A stretch of 64,000 nt of DNA from the NCBI GenBank assembly GCA_021555105.2, contig CP134604.1:1550001-1614000 (forward strand), given 5' to 3'. The position numbers and the translations under genes are program-made. Numbering within the stretch: the first letter of the stretch is position 1; the number at the start of each line of letters is the position of its first letter. This DNA comes from Thalassospiraceae bacterium LMO-JJ14 (GTDB lineage: Bacteria > Pseudomonadota > Alphaproteobacteria > Rhodospirillales > Casp-alpha2). Positions 11,894 through 26,142 of this stretch are shown here, piece by piece. The notes below the pieces were generated by a model, which worked only from the letters and a program-made list of their open reading frames with translations, did no database searches and was not told where the DNA came from.

Positions 11894-11937
11894 CCCTCTC
11901 CCTTGGGAGAGGGTAAAATCTCGTCCTCTCCCTTGTG
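11894..11937. repeat. Fragment of the CCTCTCCC palindromic repeat family
   Basis: CCCTCTCCC-TT-GGGAGAGGG (11894-11913) is a perfect 9-bp palindrome, followed by a partial second arm, TCCTCTCCCTTG. It shares its core with the longer copies at 13437, 17693 and 26033 and may act as a terminator after the DUF599 gene. Confidence 0.7.
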
Positions 11938-11967: not shown

Positions 11968-13086
11968 ATGAGCACCGAAAACCTGCAATCGCTGATTAAC
12001 CCGGCCAAGGCGCCCGCGGACACGCGCGTCGTCGTTGCCATGTCGGGCGGGGTCGACAGCTCGGTCACGGCGGCGCTGATGGCCGAGGCCGGCTATGACG
12101 TCGTCGGCGTGACGCTTCAGCTTTACGATCACGGCGAAGCGATCCAGAAAAAAGGCGCGTGCTGCGCCGGTCAGGATATCTATGACGCCAAGCGCGTCGC
12201 CGACCGGCTCGGCATCGCGCATTACGTGCTGGATTATGAAAGCCGTTTCCGCGAACAGGTGATGGAGGATTTCGCCGATACCTATCTGCGCGGCGAGACG
12301 CCGATCCCGTGCGTGCGCTGCAATCAGACCGTGAAGTTTCACGACCTGCTGGGTACGGCCAGGGATCTCGGCGCAGAGGCAATGGTCACCGGCCATTACG
12401 TGCGCCAGATGCTGGGGCCGCATGGCGCGGAAATGCACCGCGCCGTCGACCGTTCCAAAGACCAGAGCTACTTCCTGTTCGCGACCACCGGCGCGCAGCT
12501 CGATTTCCTGCGCTTCCCGCTGGGCGGCATGGACAAGGCGGAAACCCGCCGCCATGCCGGGCGTTTCAATCTGCCGGTCGCCGATAAGCCGGAAAGCCAG
12601 GATATCTGTTTCGTGCCGAACGGTTCGTATGCCCGCGTCGTCGAACGGCTGCGCCCCGGCGCCTGTGATCCGGGCCGGATCGTCGATCTGGACGGCAATG
12701 TTCTGGGCACCCATGACGGGATCATCAATTTCACTGTCGGCCAGCGCAAAGGCCTCGGTGTCGCCACCGGTGAGCCGCTGTACGTGGTGAAAATCGATCC
12801 GGACACCAAGAACGTCATCGTCGGCCCCAAGGACGCGCTCTTGTGTGCGGAAATAGGCGTCAGCGATCTGAACTGGCTCGATCACGTGCCGCTCGATGAA
12901 ACGCCCCGTGCCGTGACCGTCAAGGTCCGCTCGACCACCGACCCGGTGGCGGCGGGTATCTATCAGGGCGCGGACAGCGTGCATGTTCGCTTCGATACAC
13001 CGCAGCCCGGCGTCGCGCCGGGGCAGGCGTGTGTCGTCTATGACGGGGACCGGGTGCTCGGCGGCGGCTGGATCGTCCGCGACTAA
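11968..13086 (+). CDS. mnmA: tRNA-specific 2-thiouridylase
   Basis: Installs sulfur at C2 of wobble uridine 34 in tRNA-Lys/Glu/Gln using ATP and a relayed persulfide. The 372-residue protein has the PP-loop [11 protein letters not shown], the first catalytic Cys in PIPCVRCNQ and the second in ESQDICFVP, plus a C-terminal beta-barrel. The start MSTENLQSL at 11968 fits the family; the frame is open upstream to an ATG at 11935, but that extension overlaps the palindromic repeat. It converges with and overlaps the YnfA-like gene by 4 bp. Confidence 0.96.
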
Positions 13087-13415
13087 CCCGCGCGCGGTCC
13101 GAACAGGATCACCAGCGCGCCGATCACGCACAGCATGACGCCGAAGCCGTCCCAGCGGTCGGGCTTCGCCCCCTCGACGAGCCACATCCAGCCCATGCTG
13201 GCGAGAATGTAAATCCCCCCATACGCCGCATAGGCGCGCCCGGCAAAAGCCGCATCGACGCGGCTCAGCAGCCACGCGAAAACGATCAGCGCGAATATAC
13301 CAGGGACGATCCACCAGACCGGCTTTGCCAGCCTGAGCCAGGCCCAGAAGGCAAAACACCCGGCGATCTCGCAGATCGCGGCGGCGATATAGATGAGGAG
13401 GGCACTCGGCTGCAT
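13083..13415 (-). CDS. YnfA/UPF0060 family small membrane protein
   Basis: A 110-residue protein with four predicted TM helices. The UPF0060 pattern is clear: E-I-x-G-C-F-A-F-W near the N-terminus, then [19 protein letters not shown] and a conserved W-x-V-E-G-x-x-P-D-x-W-D. Some family members resemble small multidrug-resistance pumps; the actual substrate is unknown. It overlaps the mnmA stop convergently by 4 bp. Confidence 0.9.
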
Positions 13416-13436
13416 GGGTTACCTTAGCATGGTTCA

Positions 13437-13535
13437 CCCCCTCACCTAACCTCTCCCCCTGAAAGGGGGAGAGGGATATGTGCGGAACTGGGCGTGAATC
13501 CGAGAGTCCCTCTCCCCTGCTGAGCGAGGGAGAGG
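13437..13535. repeat. Dispersed palindromic repeat copy, right end degraded
   Basis: Begins with CCCCCTCACCT and contains the hairpin CCTCTCCCCCT-gaa-AGGGGGAGAGG and a second CCTCTCCC...GGGAGAGG hairpin. It matches the copies at 17693-17804 and 26033-26142 almost base for base over the left half, but lacks the right terminal AGGTGAGGGGG. Confidence 0.85.
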
Positions 13536-13720
13536 CGTGCACACACGGGCTGGATCAAAAGGTTTGCTATTGTACCGGAATCATAGAACAACATTTCTAT
13601 AACGTGTGTTCGTTTTGCATAGAACACTTTCACGTGCCTCCCAGAATACAAGCAACCCCTGCAAACGGTCCGACATTTGCGCCGTCCGGGGATTCTTTTC
13701 GAAACTGAAAGAGAGACAAC

Positions 13721-14392
13721 GTGACAGCAAAAAACTCAGCACCGGCAAGTCCGTCGATGAAATTCGATGCCAAGCTCTTCCTTACCTCGGTGGGGACCGG
13801 CCGGCGCAGCGTCAAATATCAGGCCAAGGACTTTATCTTCAGACAAGGAGATGCCGCAGAATCCGTCTTCTACATCGAGAAAGGCAAAGTGCAGATTACC
13901 GTTGTCTCCGATCAGGGCAAGGAAGGCATCATCGCAACCCTTGGTGCAGGTCAGTTTCTGGGCGAGGGTTGCCTTGCCGGTCAGGAATGCTATTTGGCAT
14001 CTGCGCATGCGGTCGAACCGACCACGGCGGTTACCGTCGACAAGGCGGCCATGATCCGTGTCATGCACGAACAACCTGAGCTTTCGGAAATGTTCATGTC
14101 GTTTCTGCTAACACGCAACATCAGGATCGAAGCCGATCTGGTCGACCAGTTGTTCAATTCCAGTGAAAAGCGTCTGGCGCGGGCGCTGCTGCTGTTGGCG
14201 AATTTCGGCAAGGAAGGGAGATTGGAGACAGTCGTCCCGAAGGTCAGTCAAGAAGACCTGGCGGCAACCGTCGGCACGACACGCGCCCGCGTCAACTTCT
14301 TCATGAACAAGTTCCGCAAGCTCGGCCTGATCGAGTACAACGGCGAACTCAAGGTTCACTCGGCGTTGTTGAATATCATCGTTCACGATTAG
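13721..14392 (+). CDS. Crp/Fnr family transcriptional regulator
   Basis: A 223-residue regulator with an N-terminal cyclic-nucleotide-binding-like beta roll (GDAAESVFYIEKGKVQITV, then GQFLGEGCLAGQ), a dimerisation helix and a C-terminal HTH (SQEDLAATVGTTRARVNFFMNKF). It lacks the cluster cysteines of FNR and the CRP R-S/T pair of the cAMP pocket, so its ligand is unclear. The recognition helix R-A-R-V-N-F-F differs from both CRP (RExxxR) and FNR (ExxSR), so its site is probably non-standard. GTG start at 13721; an internal ATG at 13757 (MKFDAKLFL) is a plausible alternative. Close relatives are widespread in alphaproteobacteria. Confidence 0.88.
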   Translation: MTAKNSAPASPSMKFDAKLFLTSVGTGRRSVKYQAKDFIFRQGDAAESVFYIEKGKVQITVVSDQGKEGIIATLGAGQFLGEGCLAGQECYLASAHAVEPTTAVTVDKAAMIRVMHEQPELSEMFMSFLLTRNIRIEADLVDQLFNSSEKRLARALLLLANFGKEGRLETVVPKVSQEDLAATVGTTRARVNFFMNKFRKLGLIEYNGELKVHSALLNIIVHD

Positions 14393-14413
14393 AAGCGGTT
14401 TTAGCATTGAAAA

Positions 14414-14441
14414 ACGGCGCCGGGTTTTAATCCGGCGCCGT
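14414..14441. terminator. Bidirectional intrinsic terminator
   Basis: Perfect 10-bp stem ACGGCGCCGG / CCGGCGCCGT with an 8-nt loop. It lies between the convergent Crp/Fnr-family and OmpA-like genes and has an A-run on its left, so it can serve the minus-strand gene as a T-tract terminator. Confidence 0.85.
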
Positions 14442-14473
14442 CAATTCAGGCTTGGTGTGTGTAGCGTGCAGGA

Positions 14474-15370
14474 TTATTTCTGCAAGATAACCACGACACG
14501 GCGGTTTGCCCAATTTTGGGTGTCGTCAGCGGTCTTCACGGCGGAGCGGGTTTCACCGAACGACTGGTAACCGACCTTCGGCTTGATGCCGGATGCCACG
14601 ATGGCGTCGGTGACGGTCGCGGTGCGTCGTTCCGCGAGCTGCCTGTTATAGGCATTGGTCCCGGAACGGTCGGTATAACCGTTGACCGTGACACTGGTTG
14701 CTTTTGTGTTCTTGATCGCAGCGATTATTTCATTATTCATCGCAAGGGCCTTGCTGTTCAGCGATGAACTGTTGTGGTCGAAATAAATCGTGTAGGTGGC
14801 TATTTCGATAAGTGGCTTCGGGGCCGGTGCCGGGGCTGCTGCGGCTTTCGGCTGCACCATCGGCTTGACGACGGCGGCGAGTATCGCATTGGTCTGGTTG
14901 AGGGCCGTCAGGAACCCTTTGCGGCATGCCGCGATATCGTCGGGCTGATAATTTTCTTCCTGTTCCTGCATCCAGCAATCGAACTGGGTCTGCGCGCGTG
15001 CACTCGGTAACGGGGCGCGTGTCGCGGCGCCGGCATCCAATGCCCGCATCAGGTTGCCACGTGCTTGTGCCAGTTCGTTGACATATGCACTCGGAATGCT
15101 GCGCTCATCCATCCTGGTCGGTAGAACATTGCCGTTGGCTGCGGCCTGGCGTGCTTTGGTGTTGAAGTAGTCTGTATCCCCGCGATCCGCTTCGTCCAAT
15201 TCGCTCTGCGCGAGGGCCGTGTAATCACGGTGCAGCGCGGCATGGAACTCATTGCCCTTGTCCTGCAGCCCGCGTACCTGCGAGACGTTAAGATCCTGGG
15301 GCGTCGGTGCGGCACAGGCGCCGAGTACGGAGGCAAGGGCGATAACGGATAGATATTTAATCGATTTCAT
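14474..15370 (-). CDS. OmpA-family outer membrane lipoprotein
   Basis: A 298-residue protein with a lipoprotein signal peptide ending in lipobox L-G-A-C (Cys19). A helical middle region (about 30-185) is rich in Ala and Gln. The C-terminal OmpA-like peptidoglycan-binding domain (about 190-298) shows IYFDHNSSSLN, VTVNGYTDRSGTNAYN, LAERRTATV and NRRVVVIL. It should tether the outer membrane to peptidoglycan. It is divergent from the PA2779-like gene across a long AT-rich intergenic region. Confidence 0.9.
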   Translation of the reverse strand: MKSIKYLSVIALASVLGACAAPTPQDLNVSQVRGLQDKGNEFHAALHRDYTALAQSELDEADRGDTDYFNTKARQAAANGNVLPTRMDERSIPSAYVNELAQARGNLMRALDAGAATRAPLPSARAQTQFDCWMQEQEENYQPDDIAACRKGFLTALNQTNAILAAVVKPMVQPKAAAAPAPAPKPLIEIATYTIYFDHNSSSLNSKALAMNNEIIAAIKNTKATSVTVNGYTDRSGTNAYNRQLAERRTATVTDAIVASGIKPKVGYQSFGETRSAVKTADDTQNWANRRVVVILQK

Positions 15371-15864
15371 TCAATTCATCCTCTCTGAGATGACATAAGA
15401 TTGCTGGCCGCGCCTCTTTTTGCCGGGCGCGGCTAAAATTTCTTTTCCAGGCAGGGAAGTGCATTATCACTACAACAACGCAAGTGTCGGCGATGTTCAA
15501 TATTGCACACGTTATAAAAATAAAAGAATAAGTACGAATTACTATTTTAATAATTAAATATTTTGTGAAAAATCTAACAAAATAATTAAACTAATAAACA
15601 AGAAAGCTTTCTGTAAAACAGGAATTGTGCTACATTTGCTGACTTGGTCGAAGTATTCATGCGTGGCCCGGCCTTTATTTCTATCGCTCTTGATTTTCTA
15701 AAACGAGATATCCCGCTGTCCGCCTTGGTTGTTTGACGGCTCCGGTTCTCGAGCTTGCATTTCTAAAATGACACCCTCACGCGGCAGTACATGGCGTGAC
15801 GGCACGATCCCGGTGGTAAACCTACCGCCGATAATGCGCATTTATATAAACGGAGATAACAAAA
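15371..15864. other. Long AT-rich intergenic region
   Basis: About 490 bp between divergent genes. The part near 15490-15640 is conspicuously A+T rich compared with the rest of the window, with runs such as TTTTAATAATTAAATATTTT. It probably holds both divergent promoters. A 25-codon ORF near 15659 has no Shine-Dalgarno and is not called. I see no RNA gene in it. Confidence 0.5.
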
Positions 15865-16290
15865 ATGGTTTCGAAAAAATTTAGGTTTAAAGCAGTTGCG
15901 ATCGCCATCATCACGGCATTCAGTGTGACGTTAATGCCGATCGTTCCGGTGAGCGCCGCACTTGTTAATAATAATCAGGTTGTTGAACAGCAAACAGTGC
16001 AGGGCGACCGCGATCTCGTGAATGACTTTATGAGCCGTGCCGATGTGCGCGCGCAGTTCGAGCAGCTCGGTGTCAACGCCGACGAAGCCAATCTTCGTGT
16101 CGCTGCGCTTAGCGATGTCGAAGTTGCCAAGCTTGCGAACGAAATTAAAAGTTCACCAGCAGGGCAGGGCGCTATTGGCGGCATCATCGGTGCAATCGTT
16201 CTGATCTTCATTATTCTGCTGATTACCGATTTGCTCGGCTTTACCAGTGTGTTCGGTTGGACCAACAAAGGTTCGGCGAACCCGACCTGA
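15865..16290 (+). CDS. PA2779-family small secreted membrane protein
   Basis: A 141-residue protein with a signal peptide (about 1-31), a helical, polar middle (about 35-98) and a Gly-rich C-terminal TM segment (about 103-128) starting at QGAIGGIIGAIV. The architecture matches the PA2779 family. The next gene, 13 bp downstream, encodes a C39-like cysteine peptidase of the PA2778 family, the partner normally found beside it. No enzymatic motif is present, so this may be a substrate or membrane anchor of the peptidase; that is inference. The start has a GGAG Shine-Dalgarno (ACGGAGATAAC). Confidence 0.75.
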   Translation: MVSKKFRFKAVAIAIITAFSVTLMPIVPVSAALVNNNQVVEQQTVQGDRDLVNDFMSRADVRAQFEQLGVNADEANLRVAALSDVEVAKLANEIKSSPAGQGAIGGIIGAIVLIFIILLITDLLGFTSVFGWTNKGSANPT

Positions 16291-16303
16291 GTATCTACGG
16301 CCA

Positions 16304-17260
16304 ATGCGACGTTACAATTATAAGATACGGTTCATTGCGGTACTGGTGATGCTGGTGACGTTGGGAGGTTGTGCGGCGACGCCCATGACTGAACAACTCA
16401 CGGCGTCACCGCCGCAAGGTCTGCCCGCATTCGCCGAGTTGACCGATGTGCCGTTTTTTGCACAAACGCAGTACTTCTGCGGACCTGCGGCACTCGCGAC
16501 CGTATTGAATACATCGGGTCTTGAGATCAATCCCGAAGACCTTGCAAAAAGCATCTATACACCGGGCCGGCAAGGCACCCTGCAAACAGAAATACTTACC
16601 GGGACGCGCCGTCAGGGCCGACTTGCATTGCCCGTCCATGACATGGGCGAGGCGTTCATGAACATCGCCCATGGGCGGCCGGTTTTGATTTTACAAAATC
16701 TGGCACTGGAACTTGTGCCGCAATGGCATTACGCCGTCCTGGTCGGTTTTGATCTGCCCGCGGAAACCGTAGTGCTGCGCTCCGGCACGACACGCCGGCA
16801 GGTAATGCCAATGACGACCTTCGAGCACACCTGGCGCCGCGCCGAGTTCTGGGGGGTCGTCGTCGTTGGACCAGAGGGACCCATCCCCGAAAACACATCC
16901 CTTTCTGCATGGTTGCACGAAGCCCTCGGGCTTGAGCGGGCAGGAAAGCCAACGGACGCCCTGACCGCTTTTAGCGTGGCGGCCGGTCATTGGCCCAATG
17001 CCTCAGCGCCGCTAATTGCCGCTGCAAATATATTAATAGTGCAAGGCCGTCTGCAGGATGCTGCGAGCAGTCTGCAAGCGGCAGTGCGTCGTCAGCCGGA
17101 CAATGCCGTGGCGTTGAACAACCTGGCGCATGTTCTAATGCTGCAAGGCGCGCTTGAAGCGGCTGAAAAAGCCGCTCTGAAAGCCGTTGAATATGGCGGC
17201 AGTTCCGAAGCCACGGCACGGGAAACCCTTGCCGCCATCCGGGCCAGGCAAACCAACTGA
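16304..17260 (+). CDS. PA2778-family C39-like cysteine peptidase lipoprotein with TPR repeats
   Basis: A 318-residue protein. The start at 16304 gives a lipoprotein signal with lipobox L-G-G-C (Cys23). The peptidase domain (about 45-190) has a papain-like triad: Gln near 54-56, Cys59 in QYFCGPAALATVL, His142 in QWHYAVLVGFD and Asp150. Residues about 205-315 are TPR-like helical repeats (LGLERAGKPTDALTAF; NAVALNNLAHVLMLQG). It is predicted to be lipid-anchored in the cell envelope and translationally close to the PA2779-like gene. The substrate is unknown; the adjacent Gly-rich membrane protein is the obvious candidate. Confidence 0.82.
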   Translation: MRRYNYKIRFIAVLVMLVTLGGCAATPMTEQLTASPPQGLPAFAELTDVPFFAQTQYFCGPAALATVLNTSGLEINPEDLAKSIYTPGRQGTLQTEILTGTRRQGRLALPVHDMGEAFMNIAHGRPVLILQNLALELVPQWHYAVLVGFDLPAETVVLRSGTTRRQVMPMTTFEHTWRRAEFWGVVVVGPEGPIPENTSLSAWLHEALGLERAGKPTDALTAFSVAAGHWPNASAPLIAAANILIVQGRLQDAASSLQAAVRRQPDNAVALNNLAHVLMLQGALEAAEKAALKAVEYGGSSEATARETLAAIRARQTN

Positions 17261-17273
17261 TCGCTTGGCACGG

Positions 17274-17298
17274 CCCCTCTCCCTTGGGAGGGAGAGGA
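17274..17298. repeat. Fragment of the CCTCTCCC palindromic repeat family
   Basis: CCCCTCTCCCTTGGGAGG-GAGAGG palindrome located between the PA2778-like gene and the DUF559 gene. It is a half-element related to the full copy that overlaps the end of the DUF559 gene, so that gene is bracketed by repeat sequence. Confidence 0.7.
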
Positions 17299-17354
17299 GA
17301 ACAAAATGAGCGGATGTTGTCAAAAACCGCTCTACACCTCGCATAGCTCAGTTC

Positions 17355-17705
17355 ATGGACACAGCATTCAGCAGAGCGCGCCGTCTGCGCCGTGACATGA
17401 CACCACCCGAACGGAAAGTCTGGGCCGTGTTGCGCGCACGGGGACTGAAGGGTTTCAAATTCCGCCGACAGGTCCCGATCGGCCCTTATATCGTCGACTT
17501 TTTGTGTGCAGAAAAGTGCCTTGTCATCGAAATCGATGGGAAAAGTCACGATCATCAATTGGTGTACGATGCGCGGCGGGACAGCTATCTCCGGAACATG
17601 GGGTATCGCGTTCTACGCCTTCGAAACGATCAGGTTCTGCATGAGCTTGAAGGGGCGATGCATCTGGTGCTGCAGGCGCTTCAAGCCAAATACCCCCTCA
17701 CCTAA
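17355..17705 (+). CDS. DUF559 (Vsr-like) endonuclease-domain protein
   Basis: A 116-residue protein matching the DUF559 pattern: MTPPERKVWAVLRARGLKGFKFRRQVPIG near the N-terminus, then YIVDFLCAEKCLVIEIDGKSHD, which carries the D...E-x-D/G-K-type nuclease core, and RRDSYLRNMGYRVLRL. The family is related to very-short-patch repair endonucleases; its biological role is not established. The stop TAA is supplied by a palindromic repeat that starts at 17693, and a repeat fragment lies 57 bp upstream, so the gene is embedded in repeat DNA and may be mobile with it. No clear Shine-Dalgarno was seen for the ATG. Confidence 0.85.
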   Translation: MDTAFSRARRLRRDMTPPERKVWAVLRARGLKGFKFRRQVPIGPYIVDFLCAEKCLVIEIDGKSHDHQLVYDARRDSYLRNMGYRVLRLRNDQVLHELEGAMHLVLQALQAKYPLT

Positions 17706-17804
17706 CCTCTCCCCCTGAAAGGGGGAGAGGGATATGAGCGGAACTGGGCGTGTATGCGTGAGTCCCTCTCCCCTGCGCAGCGGGGGAGAGGACAGGTGAG
17801 GGGG
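17693..17804. repeat. Full dispersed palindromic repeat (nested hairpins with terminal inverted repeats)
   Basis: 112 bp bounded by CCCCCTCACCT and its exact complement AGGTGAGGGGG. Inside are hairpin 1 (CCTCTCCCCCT-gaa-AGGGGGAGAGG) and hairpin 2 (CCTCTCCCC...GGGGGAGAGG). The left end contains the DUF559 stop codon, and the right end abuts the stop of the ABC transporter. The layout is MITE-like; no target duplication was recognised. Confidence 0.9.
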
Positions 17805-17805
17805 G

Positions 17806-19647
17806 CTAGTCCCCAGTCCCGAGTTCGTCCAGCTTCGCCTCGGCTTCGCGCGCCTGCTGCTGGCGCTGCCACATATCCGTGTAGGTGCCGTCCTGCTTCA
17901 GTAGTACCGGGTGCGTGCCGCGCTCGACGATTGCACCATCCTGAAGCACGAGAATCTCGTCGGCGTCGATCACGGTCGACAGCCGGTGCGCGATGGTCAG
18001 GGTGGTGCGGTCGGCGGAGACATCCTTGAAGCTGGCGAGAATGTCCTGCTCGGTGCGCGAGTCCAGCGCCGAGGTCGCCTCGTCGAAGACCAGAATACGC
18101 GGGTCCTTGAGGATGGTGCGCGCAATGGCGACGCGCTGCTTCTCGCCGCCCGACAGTTTCAGGCCGCGCTCGCCGACCTTGGACTGATAGCCGTCGGGCA
18201 GGCTCATGATGAAATCGTGAATGTGCGCCTGACGGGCTGCATTCTCGACGGCGGCGGGGGATGCGCCCGGCGCGCCATAGGCGATGTTGTAAAAGATCGT
18301 GTCGTTGAACAGCACCGTGTCCTGCGGCACCACGCCGATGGCGGCGCGCAGGCTTTTCTGTGTGACGTCGCGGATATCCTCGCCGTCTATCTTAACCGCG
18401 CCGCCGTCGACCTCGTAAAAGCGGTACAGGATGCGCGAGATCGTCGACTTGCCGGACCCGGTCGGGCCGACGATGGCGAGCTTCTTGCCGGCCGGCACGG
18501 TAAACGAGACATCCTTGAGGATCGCCCGGCGCTGGTCATAGGCGAAATCGACATGATCGAAGTCGATCCGTCCCGGCCCGTCTTTAAGCGGGCGAGCGTC
18601 GGGGGCGTCGGTGATCTCGCCCGGCTCGCGCAGCAGTTCGAACATCGCTTCCAGGTCGGTCAGCGAGCGCTTGATCTCGCGGTACACGAAGCCGAGGAAG
18701 TTGAGCGGCATGAATATCTGGATCAGGTACGAATTGACCAAAACGAAATCGCCGACGCTCATGGATTTGTCGGCGACGCCGTAGCCGGCCATGATCATCG
18801 CCGCCGTCACGCCGATGGTGATGATGACCGCCTGGCCGATATTCAAAAACGCCAGCGAGGTGCCGCTTTTGACGGCGGCGCGCTCGTATGCCTGCAAGGC
18901 CTGATCGAAGCGGCCGGCCTCGTGATCCTCGTTGCCGAAATACTTGACGGTCTCGAAGTTGAGCAGGCTGTCGATGGCGCGGGTATTGGCCTCGCTGTCG
19001 GTCTCGTTCATGGCGCGGCGGAACTTCAGCCGCCATTCCGTGACCAACAGCGTCCAGGCGATGTAGACGCTGAGCACGCCCAGCGTCAGCGCCGCATAGG
19101 CAAAGCCGTAAAGTTTCCACAGGATGCCGCAGACCATGACGACTTCGAGGATCGTCGGCAGCACGTTGAACAGCATGAAGCGGAGCAGGAATTCGATGCC
19201 GCTGGTGCCGCGCTCGACGGCGCGCGCCACACCGCCGGTCTTGCGTTCGAGATGAAACCGCATCGACAGATGGTGCAGGTGACGGAAGGTCTTGAGCCCG
19301 GCCTGACGGATGGCGCGCTGCGCGACGCGGGTGAAAACGGCGTCTCTCAGCTCGCCGAACGCCATCGCGGCGACGCGGCAGATGCCGTATCCGACGATCA
19401 ACGCGACCGGTACGCTGATGGCGATATCGACTTTCCCGCCGGCTGTCAGGATATCGACAGCTTGTTTGTAAAATATAGGCACCGAGACGTTCGTTGCCTT
19501 GGCCGCGATCAACAAAACCATGGCGACGACGACGCGCACGCGTAAACCCGTCTCGCCGCTCGGCCAAAGATAGGGCAGCAGGGTTTTGACGGTCGTCCAT
19601 TCACCGGTTCTGGTCATTGGGCCCGGACCGGGCTGGCGGCTGCGCAT
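17806..19647 (-). CDS. Atm1-type ABC transporter (permease-ATPase half-transporter)
   Basis: A 613-residue half-transporter: a six-helix exporter domain (about 40-330) and an ATPase domain with Walker A GPTGSGKST, signature LSGGEKQRVAIART and Walker B ILVFDEATSALD. The N-terminal TLLPYLWP and KATNVSVPIFYK segments match bacterial Atm1/HMT exporters, which export glutathione-linked or metal-thiol compounds and support Fe-S homeostasis or heavy metal tolerance. It should homodimerise in the inner membrane. The start is uncertain: a second ATG lies 30 bp downstream (MTRTGEWTT) and neither has a strong Shine-Dalgarno. A palindromic repeat abuts the stop codon. Confidence 0.9.
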   Translation of the reverse strand: MRSRQPGPGPMTRTGEWTTVKTLLPYLWPSGETGLRVRVVVAMVLLIAAKATNVSVPIFYKQAVDILTAGGKVDIAISVPVALIVGYGICRVAAMAFGELRDAVFTRVAQRAIRQAGLKTFRHLHHLSMRFHLERKTGGVARAVERGTSGIEFLLRFMLFNVLPTILEVVMVCGILWKLYGFAYAALTLGVLSVYIAWTLLVTEWRLKFRRAMNETDSEANTRAIDSLLNFETVKYFGNEDHEAGRFDQALQAYERAAVKSGTSLAFLNIGQAVIITIGVTAAMIMAGYGVADKSMSVGDFVLVNSYLIQIFMPLNFLGFVYREIKRSLTDLEAMFELLREPGEITDAPDARPLKDGPGRIDFDHVDFAYDQRRAILKDVSFTVPAGKKLAIVGPTGSGKSTISRILYRFYEVDGGAVKIDGEDIRDVTQKSLRAAIGVVPQDTVLFNDTIFYNIAYGAPGASPAAVENAARQAHIHDFIMSLPDGYQSKVGERGLKLSGGEKQRVAIARTILKDPRILVFDEATSALDSRTEQDILASFKDVSADRTTLTIAHRLSTVIDADEILVLQDGAIVERGTHPVLLKQDGTYTDMWQRQQQAREAEAKLDELGTGD

Positions 19648-26032: not shown

Positions 26033-26142
26033 CCCCCTCACCTAACCTCTCCCCCTAGAAGGGGGAGAGGGAATAGTAAAAACGTGCGTGAATGCGTGAG
26101 TCCCTCTCCACCACGAAGTGGGGGAGAGGACAGGTGAGGGGG
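26033..26142. repeat. Full dispersed palindromic repeat copy
   Basis: 110 bp with terminal CCCCCTCACCT / AGGTGAGGGGG and two internal CCTCTCC hairpins, very close to the copy at 17693-17804. The spacer between hairpins differs (AATAGTAAAAACGTGC), so only the palindromic parts and flanks are conserved. Confidence 0.9.

Follow-up and report, generated by a model that had tools for sequence, protein, structure and literature searches.

The DUF559 gene of the window (the whole analysed stretch of 64,000 nucleotides from contig CP134604.1 of Thalassospiraceae bacterium LMO-JJ14) is the sole DUF559 copy in the 3.89-Mb source genome and is free-standing and intergenic. It is bordered by copies of a palindromic repeat that also occurs elsewhere in the window (TM, the triplex motif discussed below); the features concerned are as follows:

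11895..11932: short palindrome of related type CCTCTCCCTTGGGAGAGG plus a half site
13437..13536: solo copy of the double-TM element, right outer arm missing (93% identical, 99 aligned columns)
17274..17314: decayed upstream half-element, consisting of the degenerate hairpin CCTCTCCCTTGGGAGGGAGAGG (17276-17297) and a linker remnant
17355..17705, plus strand: predicted DUF559 (Vsr/EDxHD-fold) nuclease gene, 116 aa, based on Pfam profile and predicted structure
17693..17804: complete double-TM element (111 bp), two inverted triplex-type hairpins with third strands outward
17693..17702: third-strand arm CCCCCTCACC of the first TM, overlapping the last codons of the DUF559 gene
17703..17705, plus strand: stop codon TAA of the DUF559 gene, also spacer of the first TM
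17706..17730: first hairpin CCTCTCCCCC-TGAAA-GGGGGAGAGG
17765..17791: second hairpin CCTCTCCCC-TGCGCAGC-GGGGGAGAGG
17795..17803: third-strand arm GGTGAGGGG of the second TM
26033..26142: solo copy of the double-TM element (86%, 112 aligned columns)

The product of 17355-17705 matched PF04480 over residues 6-110 (E 1.5e-38; 131.4 bits versus a cut-off of 20.6); no HUH/Y1 domain was detected by Pfam, which gave DUF559 alone and MTES_1575 below its cut-off. The predicted structure (pLDDT 89.8) was closest in fold to 3HRL (Z 15.6) and shared the nuclease fold of the EDxHD homing endonuclease I-Bth0305I (3r3p; Z 12.3, rmsd 2.8, 94 aligned) and of Vsr (1cw0; Z 11.4, rmsd 2.0, 101 aligned); the Z of 7.2 for TnsA lies in a range where a common fold can be due to chance, and Holliday-junction resolvases were placed further down the same list. 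At profile level, I-Bth0305I was matched with E 1.4e-4 (toxin B chains, with E values of 0.24 or more, were treated as chance matches). Nine residues are invariant across 61 DUF559 sequences, including E59, D61, H65 and D72, and D48 is present in at least 90% of them; by analogy, these four residues together with D48 may represent the catalytic set. Fold and conserved residues support the assignment of the protein to the Vsr/EDxHD branch of PD-(D/E)XK enzymes as a predicted nuclease, and the Vsr-like character proposed in the original prediction is borne out by the fold match to Vsr, which covers the whole domain.

The complete element comprises, in this order, CCCCCTCACC, TAA, the first hairpin, a linker, the second hairpin, an ACA spacer and GGTGAGGGG, the outer arms being purine-rich. 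Its single-stranded fold (17693-17803/4) was calculated at -37.9 kcal/mol versus -20.3 +- 2.6 for shuffled sequences (z -6.7; 0/200 shuffles as good). The 20-mer CCCCTCACCTAACCTCTCCC, with up to three mismatches allowed, occurs five times in the window (0.00 expected) and the 8-mer CCTCTCCC 17 times (1.6 expected). The upstream piece at 17274-17314 corresponds to a degenerate first hairpin plus linker (GGAGAACAAAATGAGCGGA versus GGAGAGGGATATGAGCGGA) and reached a local score of 23 against the element, the maximum in 500 shuffles being 22. The gene is indeed located between an upstream repeat fragment and a full downstream repeat, as had been claimed, with the upstream one decayed; likewise, its TAA stop at 17703-17705 falls into the first 13 bases of the element starting at 17693. 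The copies at 13437 and 26033 were 81-93% identical to the element across their aligned parts, and the source genome contains 91 matches per strand (some nested) to the pattern CCTCTCCCN2-30GGGAGAGG versus 25 for the pattern read backwards, a control that partly re-reads the same repeats. A second repeat variant, in which third strand and main hairpin are separated by an additional small hairpin (GGCGC...GCGCC), was seen at the loci L005, L008 and other places of the source genome, and also at L031, L033 and L034. Within window positions 13083-19647, approximately 4 kb with several genes are located between two element copies and split the genes of a small membrane protein and an ABC transporter that are adjacent in the relatives L124 and L120; recombination between element copies is a possible origin of this layout. 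At L120 (genome G044, without DUF559), a solo double palindrome of related type is present at the place matching the DUF559 unit of the window.

Judged by its sequence, the window repeat is the G/C-rich intrastrand-triplex motif TM, earlier named PIT, as described in PMC4666352: the hairpin CCTCTCCCC/GGGGGAGAGG with the purine-rich third strand GGTGAGGGG can be compared with Table 1 of that paper. The TM/PIT motif has been reported from E. coli and more than 260 genomes as an intergenic sequence with the layout CCCTCTCCC-loop-GGGAGAGGG-spacer-GGGTGAGGG, some E. coli sites being inverted pairs (PMC4666352); the window element has in common with it the inverted pairs, the succession of hairpin, spacer and third strand, the intergenic location and the occurrence in many genomes. 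The triplex of the E. coli motif formed in vitro and was unsupported in vivo, and transposase or integrase activities near TM sites were never found by the authors (PMC4666352). TM/PIT sequences were published as repeats without an associated gene, whereas here they are tied to the DUF559 nuclease family.

The original prediction had drawn a parallel to REP-associated transposase (RAYT) genes, and this parallel holds for the architecture: both systems combine the gene of a small DNA-cutting enzyme (predicted in the case of DUF559), inverted palindromes flanking it (one side decayed at the window locus) and dispersed solo pairs, with many solo repeats in the genome that carries the gene, in the source genome as well as generally. 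The parallel fails for the enzyme: RAYT is an HUH/Y1 enzyme, whereas the window protein is Vsr-like, lacks an HUH/Y1 domain and is unrelated to RAYT. REP hairpins are tagged by GTAG/CGTC (PMC3733652), in contrast to the CCTCTCCC triplex motif found here; when the window repeat was read against the definition in that paper, no GTAG/CGTC tag was present at the foot of its hairpins.

The association was surveyed beyond the window. Twelve DUF559 matches were found in the window's family (48 genomes); palindromes were read close to all 11 stand-alone genes (one of these genes is broken), and the twelfth match is a domain in a long protein without nearby palindromes. In the window's class (Alphaproteobacteria), 126 of the 387 genomes contained a DUF559 match; one genome of this class matched a named Rhizobium record with full identity across 3.3 kb, in keeping with the class name. 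A flank scan (stem of at least 8, loop of at most 20, 5' arm containing at least 7 consecutive pyrimidines, within 300 bp of the gene) detected hairpins at 26/30 and 48/60 DUF559 loci of two class sets, the 60 of the latter being taken alternately from 119 listed, stronger matches that had not yet been assigned a locus. By eye, all 30 loci of the first set show hairpins; among 17 misses of the strict scan that were re-read, 14 were judged to contain imperfect palindromes, and L112, L117 and L160 did not clearly do so. Hairpin density in the class sets was 4.4-6.1/kb within 150 bp of DUF559, and at distances above 300 bp it was 0.04-0.10/kb (60-locus set) and 0.00-0.04/kb (30-locus set). Unlike DUF559, vsr genes were without flanking repeat: the same scan, applied to 30 vsr genes of these 387 genomes, gave 0/30 with hairpins. 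A slightly laxer scan (pyrimidine run of at least 6) of 80 named loci detected a hairpin within 300 bp in 73 and on both sides in 59, with densities of 6.2/kb near the gene, 0.32 at 300-500 bp and 0.07-0.17 beyond. According to the record titles, these loci include Nitrospira, Desulfobacterales, Chloroflexi, Melainabacteria, Planctomycetota and Omnitrophota as well as Chlamydiae, Spirochaetes, Aminicenantes and Daviesbacteria; a good number of these records consist of one contig assembled from a metagenome, and individual names should be treated with caution.

At the level of whole genomes, matches to the pattern CCYTCYCCCN2-14GGGRGARGG were counted across all 387 class genomes, and DUF559 matches with E below 1e-20 were regarded as strong; a threshold of five TMs was applied because the flanking copies themselves add a few matches to each DUF559-positive genome. 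At least five TMs were present in 67/95 genomes with strong DUF559 matches (median 13; 15 with none), in 3/31 with weak matches alone and in 16/261 without a match (median 0; 205 with none), which corresponds to a phylogenetically uncorrected Fisher odds ratio of 36.6 for DUF559-positive versus DUF559-negative genomes (p 2.9e-34). Among the 31 mixed families, the mean TM count of DUF559-positive genomes was higher in 26, lower in 3 and tied in 2. Vsr was no predictor of TMs among DUF559-negative genomes (4/48 with versus 15/244 without Vsr reaching five TMs), and DUF559 predicted them in both Vsr-positive (22/30 versus 4/48) and Vsr-negative genomes (45/65 versus 15/244). In the window's family, at least one TM of similar pattern occurred in 11/11 DUF559-positive and 13/37 DUF559-negative genomes; a clear exception is G044 (99% complete), which lacks DUF559 and contains 132 palindromes.

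The nearest flanks are intergenic, where terminator hairpins are common, and the association could have been an artefact of palindromes that any small gene in such DNA would show. This reading is hardly credible: it is refuted for vsr in the same genomes and is opposed by the steep distance profile (4.4-6.2 hairpins/kb within 150 bp versus 0.00-0.32/kb at 300-5000 bp) and by the genome-level test, and chance or generic intergenic hairpins were ruled out as explanation for these three reasons. The statistical association of DUF559 genes with the repeats across genomes, absence of which would have refuted the original prediction, is very strong per locus, per genome and for gene ends (see below); at the level of sequence, the partnership of DUF559 gene and TM repeat can be considered established.

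The anatomy of the unit was analysed in a 244-locus table, from which L026 (broken gene), L027 (domain in a long protein) and the duplicates L246, L249, L255 and L258 were dropped; L198 (in-frame stop) was dropped from alignment A2. The third strand pointed toward the gene in 91 versus 18 of the nearest upstream hairpins (n=182) and in 87 versus 26 of the nearest downstream hairpins (n=170), all others being undecided or of both kinds. The stop codon is located inside the third strand or hairpin at 99 of the 145 DUF559 loci with a downstream hairpin, giving protein tails such as PSPQPSP; whether DUF559 genes elsewhere end inside palindromes, as the window gene does, is answered affirmatively by this survey. 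Comparison of the upstream flank with the reverse complement of the downstream flank gave a median of 51 for the same locus and of 22 for different loci, and paralogues within one genome were accompanied by different TM variants. Gene and flanks co-diversified (uncapped: 71.4 versus 47.0 +- 5.1, 0/5000 shuffles); the uncapped value is inflated, because L043 and L187 as well as L215 and L262 are the same DNA and some nearest pairs occupy orthologous sites. When the nearest relative was limited to less than 70%, 65% and 60% identity, 0, 0 and 30 of 5000 shuffles, respectively, reached the observed value. These capped tests, which are the ones relied upon, demonstrate that gene and flank are linked, not that the flank is recognised; an adjacent gene and repeat can co-vary by linkage alone.

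Signatures of carA and/or carB were seen at 17/244 DUF559 loci (L017, L018, L021, L040, L041, L049, L054, L058, L061, L163, L173, L201, L207, L219, L223, L229 and L230), which marks carA/carB as a favoured or anciently occupied DUF559 site. For 11/17 of them the nearest foreign relative was also a carAB locus, and the group is therefore partly of vertical descent. The carA/carB loci and the structural and profile match to I-Bth0305I are compatible with a free-standing EDxHD homing endonuclease that spreads into intergenic sites such as carA-carB and uses the TMs as terminators or homology arms; I-Bth0305I itself is intron-encoded and has extra DNA-binding regions (PMC3943268), whereas the window gene is free-standing and intergenic. 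Such a homing endonuclease is very improbable in view of the varying DUF559 positions within one genus, the partly vertical carAB members and the abundance of solo TMs, which it would leave unexplained.

Signs of movement were found in one genus of the window's family: in G029 and G035, two transport genes are separated by 46 bp, and the corresponding interval of G028, G031 and G032 comprises approximately 530 bp with DUF559 and one double TM; in a further species (neighbouring protein 97% identical to that of one of the three), fragments of the gene end and of TM surround another insertion. Genome G717 carries the unit twice (97% identical over 619 bp, a within-genome duplication); at L303 of the same genome, a 225-bp TM-containing stretch adjoins DUF559 in three near-identical head-to-tail copies. 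In two Legionella species, DUF559 is enclosed by terminal inverted repeats of approximately 145-150 bp, the inner part of which is TM, with TA at both ends (units of 661, 683 and 1001 bp); copies of the outer end TAGGNAANGTCCCTA number 17 in one of the genomes and 9 in the other, versus 0 for the reversed pattern. At L323 and L315 (Legionella gormanii), transposase-like sequence adjoins the palindrome in units with the same outer inverted repeat; the transposase-like ORF of some Legionella units is presumably IS5-like. No clear target-site duplication was present at the window copy or at the empty site, and no terminal inverted repeat or target-site duplication beyond the TMs at the window locus or at the g13 site. 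In evolving L. pneumophila, segments with transposase and DUF559 genes have been described as mutation and recombination hotspots, and 44% of 61 long-range variants joined hotspot pairs, homing-endonuclease and DUF559 groups combined (PMC12308824). As far as sequence comparison goes, the empty site, the duplication and the Legionella units suggest that the DUF559 gene and its TMs move as one unit.

What drives such movement could be something other than the nuclease. As the main rival to a repeat-copying nuclease, DUF559 may be the passenger of a cassette that travels through the tendency of its TM ends to recombine or through a different transposase; the enzyme would then leave TMs alone and serve some other purpose such as mismatch repair or defence. 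The separate outer inverted repeats of the Legionella units, some with the presumed IS5-like ORF, fit this reading, as do the E. coli TM sites, which are rearrangement-prone and tied to genome instability (PMC4666352), and Caulobacter VsrA with its link to cytosine methylation and SOS (PMC12907096). By itself it accounts neither for the abundance of solo TMs in DUF559 genomes nor for the lack of flanks at vsr genes, and it is considered rather unlikely.

In E. coli, the DUF559 family is represented by ycjD:

1351407-1351760, minus strand: ycjD (b1289), DUF559 gene of MG1655

The gene is located between sapF and fabI in 3365 of 5426 complete E. coli genomes. In MG1655, the 3' end of ycjD overlaps with a TM-like remnant; next comes a second TM, with the sequence of TM no. 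9 (1351204-1351239) in PMC4666352. A long inverted repeat, CACCTCATTCTGACAA...TTGTCAGAATGAGGTG, unrelated to TM, lies directly 5' of ycjD at positions 2190-2231 of L336. Comparison of the ycjD-negative loci L333, L334 and L335 with L336 revealed an efflux operon between sapF and fabI, as likewise described for ycjD-negative strains (PMC12817139); ycjD and the efflux operon are alternatives that replace each other at this site, and the ycjD-negative strains were ruled out as a clean empty site. The Rouxiella gene gave no match to the E. coli DUF559 gene by DNA similarity; the E. coli one was found by protein search (plasmid collection). A gonococcal DUF559 gene lies between TM-type repeats and is, by family, taken to be of the NGO0050 type (PDB 3HRL). 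Within DUF559, YcjD is a predicted nuclease (earlier assigned to PD-(D/E)XK; PMC1189080), NGO0050 a solved structure and VsrA a suspected VSP repair enzyme. Caulobacter VsrA causes SOS induction when a cytosine methyltransferase is absent (PMC12907096), which would imply DNA cutting or nicking by this family in at least one setting. No repeat link was met in the available parts of the papers on YcjD and VsrA (PMC12907096, PMC12817139, PMC1189080), and no paper linking DUF559/YcjD to TM repeats was found in a search whose scope largely excluded subscription papers and preprints.

The SOS induction of VsrA, the Vsr-like fold (Holliday-junction resolvases appear further down among the structural matches) and the co-occurrence of DUF559 and TMs across genomes would also agree with a caretaker nuclease that resolves or repairs TM structures at forks and is kept near TMs to limit damage, the TMs spreading otherwise. 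TM-rich genomes without DUF559 exist (G044), and joint gain, inverted flanks facing the gene and stop codons inside the repeat are not predicted by a caretaker, so that this role appears improbable.

With little more than even confidence, DUF559 is regarded as a repeat-copying nuclease with its own TM motif, RAYT-like in arrangement and not by descent: the DUF559 gene and its flanking triplex-type palindromes would belong together as a single unit, in which a compact nuclease of Vsr/EDxHD fold is paired with a dedicated DNA motif. The nuclease would recognise the TM, either in duplex form or, at forks, as a hairpin or triplex of single-stranded DNA, and would nick or cut at the TM or at a target; repair or template switching might copy the TM pair, and occasionally the whole unit, to new sites, and the solo double TMs would be the counterpart of REPINs in RAYT systems, namely non-autonomous copies. 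An action of DUF559 on TM DNA, and a nuclease that itself moves or maintains the repeat, originally raised as a possibility, are what we infer. Against a repeat-copying nuclease speak the TM-rich G044 and the 13 DUF559-negative family genomes with at least one TM, the 15 DUF559-positive genomes without a pattern match and the three reversed families; furthermore, E. coli TM sites are mostly common to different strains (PMC4666352), a clear target-site duplication is missing, linkage alone may explain the co-variation, and in Legionella another transposase could do the moving.

A wider reading, to which somewhat less than even confidence is attached, is that DUF559 with triplex-type palindromes constitutes a pan-bacterial class of minimal selfish elements, ranging from E. 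coli K-12 as far as candidate phyla; a PD-(D/E)XK enzyme of approximately 110 residues would recognise triplex or hairpin DNA and copy it around genomes. Such elements would have evolved independently of REP-RAYT as a second system of that kind, and the PIT/TM repeats would originate from them. The origin of these repeats was left open in PMC4666352. The association described here names a candidate enzyme family for making or spreading TM/PIT; with ycjD, E. coli K-12 itself has a member, and both gene and repeats are testable there with ordinary tools. The repeat-copying reading would give DUF559, which has no agreed function, a biological setting, and would represent, beside RAYT-REP, a second and unrelated case of a partnership between an enzyme and a palindrome.
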